NCBI GenBank assembly: GCA_034638255.1
Contig: JAWPGT010000001.1
Location: forward strand, 1,984,001-2,048,000
Origin: Coprinus comatus
Lineage: Eukaryota > Basidiomycota > Agaricomycetes > Agaricales > Agaricaceae
DNA: 64,000 nucleotides
Direction of reading: 5' to 3'
The translations under genes and the position numbers were made by a program. Positions 51,110 to 51,462 of this stretch are shown here, piece by piece; within the stretch, counting starts at the first letter, position 1; the number at the start of each line of letters is the position of its first letter. Below the pieces are notes generated by a model. The model was not told the origin of the DNA, did not search any database, and saw nothing but the letters and a program-made list of their open reading frames with translations.

Positions 51110-51462
51110 ATGAAACTTTCTATCATTCTCTCTACCCTCTTGGTCGTCTCTGTAACTGCGATTCCGGTATATAGTCATTCAGAGAGTATCATGGAACCTA
51201 GATACTGATAGCCTTATAGATCGCTATGCCTATGCCTGCTGCCATCGCTATTGCTGGCAATAGTGACTGGAGACGAGGATCTGAGGTTGAAGAACGCGGC
51301 AACTCGGACTGGAGACGGACTGTGATGGCAGCCGGTGGCGATTGGGAAAGAATTAACCATGGAGAGCTGGGTGATCGCGGTAATTCTGACTGGAGAAGAG
51401 AACAAGTTGAGGTCCGCGGAAACTCGGACTGGAAACGAGAGAGTCGTGGTGCTTCTGATTGA
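51110..51462 (+). CDS. Secreted repeat-peptide precursor, probable kexin-processed, core GNSDW
   Basis: Exons 51110-51166 and 51220-51462 (53-nt intron) give 99 residues. The first exon is a signal peptide (MKLSIILSTLLVVSVTA, then IP). If cut after Ala17, residues 18-31 are seven dipeptides ending in Pro or Ala (IP IA MP MP AA IA IA), the kind trimmed by Ste13/DPP-IV enzymes. Four exact GNSDW units follow at residues 32-36, 46-50, 73-77 and 86-90, each followed by Arg-Arg or Lys-Arg, the Kex2 site. The last three are also preceded by a single Arg. Degenerate copies are GGDWER at 58-63 and GASD at the C-terminus. Spacers are acidic. There is no Cys, and no modification enzyme is visible nearby. 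It could be a pheromone-like or signalling peptide, a RiPP precursor, or a surface peptide; I recognise no known family. Confidence 0.75.
51256..51459 (+). repeat. GNSDW-(R/K)R coding repeats
   Basis: Exact units at 51256-51276, 51298-51318, 51379-51399 and 51418-51438; degenerate ones at 51334-51351 and 51448-51459. The four Ser codons are AGT, TCG, TCT and TCG, and the Gly codons vary (GGC, GGC, GGT, GGA). The peptide is therefore kept constant while the DNA has diverged. Confidence 0.85.

Follow-up and report, generated by a model that had tools for sequence, protein, structure and literature searches.

The gene at positions 51110-51462 on the forward strand of the window (the 64,000-nucleotide stretch of Coprinus comatus DNA analysed here) encodes a precursor of 99 residues which, judged by its sequence, is a member of a described class, the KEX2-processed repeat proteins (KEPs); it is probably of the basidiomycete '[S/A]DW' kind, giving rise to linear peptides that end in GNSDW, mainly the pentapeptide itself, through kexin, Kex1-type trimming, and either dipeptidyl aminopeptidase action or cleavage at a single Arg. 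The precursor is new, but its kind has been described since 2019.

By the criteria of Le Marquer et al. (PMC6339444), a KEP should begin with a signal peptide, should yield at least four fragments of at least two residues upon in-silico cutting at KR/RR, and should carry at least three similar repeats over at least 15% of the protein. The window precursor has, on inspection, a putative signal peptide; it yields four fragments ending in GNSDW and a C-terminal one, and its four GNSDW copies account for 20 of 99 residues (20%, counted as identical 5-mers and not with FIMO). The same authors describe an 'XSDW' KEP motif in Basidiomycota, in an ectomycorrhizal and in saprotrophic species, and the fourfold GNSDW is a repeated XSDW within a KEP; as far as their text description goes, the likeness extends to a repeated SDW-ending core in KEX2-processed, secreted Basidiomycota precursors.

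Structure of the precursor gene

The gene has two exons separated by a 53-nt intron, all on the forward strand. Exon 1 (51110-51166, 57 nt) encodes the putative signal peptide MKLSIILSTLLVVSVTA followed by IP; its assignment rests on translation and hydropathy (mean 2.36 over residues 3-16) and on a V-T-A cleavage motif, with the cleavage site placed by eye, and the protein is on this reading probably secreted. The intron (51167-51219, phase 0, GTATAT...TACTGAT...TATAG) has standard ends and, on inspection, a CTGAT branch-like motif; left unspliced, the exon-1 frame meets two stops inside it, and the adjoining MCM gene has a comparable intron of 49 nt (GT..TATAG). Exon 2 (51220-51462, 243 nt) encodes the repeat region and ends with the stop codon TGA. 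Its upstream neighbour is a WD40-repeat gene; the downstream one belongs to the MCM family, and we take it to be MCM3.

In a homology search of the fungus's own 35.7-Mb assembly, this gene is the sole match at E <= 0.001. A genome-wide pattern search for two D-W runs, each with two basic-like codons after it, 9-39 nt apart, likewise matches only here, twice (the reversed pattern, run as a control, has 0 matches), so that neither approach sees a close paralogue. A Pfam scan assigns the precursor to no family.

Conservation of the pentapeptide

Exon 2 opens with the X-P/X-A dipeptides IA-MP-MP-AA-IA-IA (51220-51255, + strand, as are all units that follow), which the IP of exon 1 brings to seven and which run into the first core, forming a putative ladder of the STE13/dipeptidyl aminopeptidase type. 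Core 1, GNSDW with RR (51256-51276), is followed by the spacer GSEVEER (51277-51297), which places a single Arg ahead of core 2, GNSDW with RR (51298-51318). A longer spacer (51319-51378), which holds the degenerate unit GGDW-ER (51334-51351) and ends in GDR, leads to core 3, GNSDW with RR (51379-51399), and the spacer EQVEVR (51400-51417) to core 4, GNSDW with KR (51418-51438); the remainder (51439-51462) consists of ESR, the degenerate GASD starting at 51448, and TGA. The original observation of four GNSDW units without variation, each ahead of RR or KR (RR, RR, RR and KR at 51256, 51298, 51379 and 51418), and of degenerate extra units (GGDW-ER at 51334, GASD at 51448) is therefore borne out. 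In the last unit (51448-51462), GASD is followed by TGA where the other units have TGG (Trp), so that the precursor stops just before the Trp that would complete a further DW unit.

Repetition to this degree does not arise from composition: when the 80 residues of exon 2 are shuffled 200,000 times, no shuffle contains any 5-mer four times, and 1,425 contain one twice or more. The four 15-nt core units (GGCAATAGTGACTGG, GGCAACTCGGACTGG, GGTAATTCTGACTGG and GGAAACTCGGACTGG) differ pairwise at 1-5 nucleotides, with no residue changed, and include serine codons of both the AGT and the TCN type, which no single silent step connects; thus, it is the peptide that is conserved and not the DNA. Under a simple star-like substitution model, which gives a rough figure, the chance of identical residues despite these nucleotide differences is about 1.4e-7, and differences confined to silent positions are what purifying selection on the pentapeptide would leave. 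That the repeats are a matter of chance, or a DNA-level microsatellite in a non-coding stretch, is a reading to which we give next to no weight: the units vary in DNA and not in protein, Tandem Repeats Finder lists no array at the locus, and GNSDW recurs, again repeated, in other fungi or metagenomes, so that the relatives contradict it.

These relatives are few and of uneven significance. A search with the full 99-residue query finds nothing at E <= 10; the protein encoded by exon 2 finds a metagenome protein, P0001 (E = 3.5e-4), and the Pluteus cervinus protein BDN72DRAFT_890582, P0002 (E = 0.35, not significant alone). A profile built from the window protein and these two, in which their own E-values are uninformative, finds a second metagenome protein of 149 residues, P0003 (E = 1.7e-25, a value helped by a stretch shared with P0001, so that the two are not independent), and the Volvariella volvacea protein AX16_005664, P0004 (E = 5.6e-5). 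P0001 contains three copies of GNSDW and P0003 five, with spacers other than those of the window protein; six-residue spacers are common in both (NEVDVR in both, TGNEAR in P0001, SEAEAR in P0003). In the Pluteus protein RR stands ahead of, and RR or KR behind, each of four exact GNSDW, and the Volvariella protein has three GSGSADW and one GGGGADW. Both resemble the window protein in their hydrophobic N-terminus, in the sequence ALPVAEP (AIPIAMP in the window protein) and in four DW-ending cores ahead of RR/KR, but differ from it in that their cores are directly adjacent (RR-GNSDW-RR; RR-GSGSADW-RR), without spacers. P0003 appears from its sequence to retain an unspliced intron, in frame, after its ALP, the window gene having its own intron after AIP. 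P0002, P0003 and P0004 also have no family in a Pfam scan.

The window protein and P0001-P0003 together hold 16 GNSDW copies, of which 15 follow an Arg and 15 precede KR/RR. Cores that stay constant while the spacers vary suggest that GNSDW is what is released; conserved spacers with changing cores, which had been named in advance as grounds for abandoning the proposal, are the opposite of what is seen in these few relatives.

Boundaries of the predicted peptide

The cores had been placed 'between dibasic sites', which holds only for their C-terminal side; on the N-terminal side the residues immediately preceding the four copies are A, R, R and R. Ahead of copy 1, the seven-dipeptide ladder IP-IA-MP-MP-AA-IA-IA starts at the likely signal-peptidase site and ends exactly at the G of the core; when these 14 residues are shuffled 200,000 times, a perfect X-P/X-A ladder turns up in 0.25% of cases (analytically 7/3003). 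Ahead of copies 2-4 there are no STE13 dipeptides, and the Arg is preceded by acidic or aliphatic residues, which does not make an ideal kexin site. The relatives have runs of the same kind that are broken short of the first core (LP-VA-EP-AP-VA, then GEDLRR, in Pluteus; a run that stops after LP-VA-EP in Volvariella), so that the ladder reading is drawn from the window protein only.

From these features we infer cleavage at each site, secretion, linearity and function as follows. Signal peptidase would take off residues 1-17; kexin would cut behind each Trp, after RR/KR, and a Kex1-type carboxypeptidase would trim the basic residues to leave ...GNSDW ends. Ahead of copy 1, a STE13-like dipeptidyl aminopeptidase would work along the ladder and so expose the N-terminus of the core; copies 2-4 would gain theirs by a cut after the single Arg, made by kexin or by a yapsin, the yapsins being proteases with a role in single-Arg cleavage. 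Either way, the peptide would start at the same G. Most of the product would be GNSDW in linear form, released from the cell as a signal inside the mycelium or to other organisms.

The main rival to this pentapeptide reading is that the same type of precursor is cut by kexin at its dibasic sites only, releasing the N-extended peptides GSEVEERGNSDW, EQVEVRGNSDW and a 25-mer, of which GNSDW would be the shared C-terminus. The non-ideal single-Arg sites mean that such peptides may be real products, and the six-residue spacers of P0001 and P0003 would give 11-mers, the length of SGTGEASAADW from Lentinula (PMC9769878). However, the GNSDW of Pluteus is dibasic on both sides, so that no extension is possible there; the six residues ahead of window copies 2-4 agree at only one to three of six positions, the cores being identical; and the last dipeptide of the ladder directly adjoins the G of copy 1. 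Products apparently cut after a single Arg have moreover been described in Pichia, a host in which C. cinerea KEPs were expressed (PMC9769878). We thus regard 11-12-mers as the main products as possible, if on the unlikely side, with the proviso that this estimate overlaps with the one for the pentapeptide, since both forms may be released together. The calculated [M+H]+ values are m/z 578.2205 for GNSDW, 1318.6022 for EQVEVRGNSDW and 1364.5713 for GSEVEERGNSDW.

Genes for the processing enzymes are present in the genome. A kexin homologue (L013), one of nine Peptidase_S8 matches, aligns to a solved kexin at E = 1.1e-71; a search of the genome for P_proprotein gave no match, perhaps because the domain is broken by introns. 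A Kex1-like carboxypeptidase (L047) aligns to a solved Kex1 at E = 9.8e-9, and a DPPIV-like gene lies on contig C7 (L024/L027), which may equally encode an ordinary secreted DPPIV. A piece of an S9-family gene (L021) was considered as a STE13 candidate and set aside, its best matches being S9 peptidases. The presence of kexin, Kex1-like and DPPIV-like genes supports a kexin-processed repeat precursor, and together with relatives in which the core is constant and the spacers differ it sustains the original proposal of such a precursor with GNSDW as its unit.

Comparison with other peptide precursors

Peptides of related form have been detected by mass spectrometry in two cultivated mushrooms (Vogt et al., 2022, PMC9769878): the 11-mer SGTGEASAADW from KEP 2599 of Lentinula edodes (shiitake), and forms of SGVAADW from KEPs 1091723/1439342 of Pleurotus (oyster mushroom), both with the end AADW. 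As described there, these precursors share repeats, KEX2 sites and DW-ending peptides with the window protein, and the Pleurotus ones STE13 motifs as well; they differ in their longer cores and AADW ends, and the STE13 motifs, which belong to the repeated units in Pleurotus, stand only before copy 1 in the window protein. The view that no peptide with such a core had been described is not supported, given the XSDW motif (PMC6339444) and the AADW peptides (PMC9769878), while the exact string GNSDW is absent from the literature searched, bar an unrelated substring match. The most widespread KEP type of Umemura, G-1 (PMC7329392), was considered as a class for the precursor and rejected, its profile being described as high in Tyr.

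The layout is also that of ustiloxin-type dikaritin precursors, which combine repeats with kexin sites (PMC7329392, PMC9769878), and the genome does contain UstYa matches (11 pieces on contigs C1, C3, C9 and C31), as would be needed if the core were cyclised by UstYa-family oxidases into a dikaritin-type RiPP. Unlike in the ustiloxin type, however, the core has no Tyr and no UstYa match lies nearby: the window has none, and the closest on this contig lies about 533 kb off (matches broken by introns could be missed), so that no UstYa (DUF3328) gene was found within the 15 genes of Umemura's dikaritin criterion (PMC7329392). KEP peptides from four agaricomycetes are, moreover, described as linear and minimally modified (PMC9769878). 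With the nearest UstYa match at such a distance, a cyclised dikaritin, one of the forms that the RiPP originally suggested might have taken, is very unlikely.

Two groups of UstYa matches, at C1:2568046-2574527 and C31:50639-52213, mark possible dikaritin clusters elsewhere in the genome. A scan for KEP-like repeats around the UstYa matches on C1, C3, C9 and C31 returned only one frame, on C31 (L050:3-1787), with about nine repeats around MPEPT[I/V]PSIVPD and RR after most of them; no signal peptide is in view, the frame extending past the start of the stretch examined. Over the regions examined around UstYa matches and the window, a simple search of the open frames for such repeats returned three rows: the GNSDW gene, this repeat protein, and a second KEP on contig C22 (L039:1278-1689, also in L055). 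The latter, which a query of published cores matched weakly (E = 2.08) and which was identified by reading, starts with a hydrophobic stretch and probably has two introns, of 62 and 59 nt. It carries YPPGW four times and APGW once, with KR after every one of these cores; STE13-type dipeptides (EA-VP-AP or DA-EP-AP) stand ahead of three of the four YPPGW cores, which end in Trp as GNSDW does. The string YPPGW is absent from the literature searched, and a Pfam scan finds no family in this protein either.

The precursor of yeast alpha-factor has a signal peptide, kexin sites and X-A dipeptides before a core, all of which recur in the window precursor, the signal peptide as a putative one; the cores themselves are unrelated. 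Mating in basidiomycetes usually proceeds through lipopeptide pheromones. An alpha-factor-type sexual pheromone is suggested by the STE13-like ladder and the kexin sites, and look-alikes of the alpha type in Basidiomycota are discussed by Le Marquer et al. (PMC6339444), but no STE2 match was found in the genome (by a search that gave none in control genomes either and in which introns break matches), and the 25 STE3 matches, of which 19 lie on contig C8, fit the usual lipopeptide system, with the precursor gene on C1. We consider this reading highly improbable and find no positive support for a pheromone role. The 19 STE3-type receptor matches on C8 lie together at C8:445461-496030, presumably as expected for a basidiomycete mating-type region; the others are on C3 and C40.

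Implications

From the class of the precursor we infer a role for GNSDW in signalling or biotic interaction. What KEP-derived peptides do is for the most part unknown, as the abstract of PMC9769878 states; the same study reports six kep knockouts of C. cinerea without visible phenotype and synthetic KEP peptides without antibacterial activity in the tests made, so that a function is not assured. Cryptococcus Qsp1, which is imported by Opt1 (PMC7537855), offers an analogy only.

The core is exact in Pluteus cervinus, in the window fungus and in two metagenome proteins, and the rest of the precursor changes around it. A tentative and rather doubtful extension is that GNSDW serves Agaricales as a conserved pentapeptide hormone without modifications, and that its precursors would arrive at the same N-terminus by three routes: the dipeptidyl-peptidase ladder in window copy 1, single-Arg cleavage in window copies 2-4 and most copies of the metagenome relatives, and dibasic cleavage in Pluteus. 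If this were true, selection would bear on the precise peptide rather than on the manner of cutting, and one would expect a receptor or importer dedicated to it. As a defined candidate of predicted mass that is cheap to synthesise, GNSDW makes it practicable to test whether hormones are made from basidiomycete KEPs.
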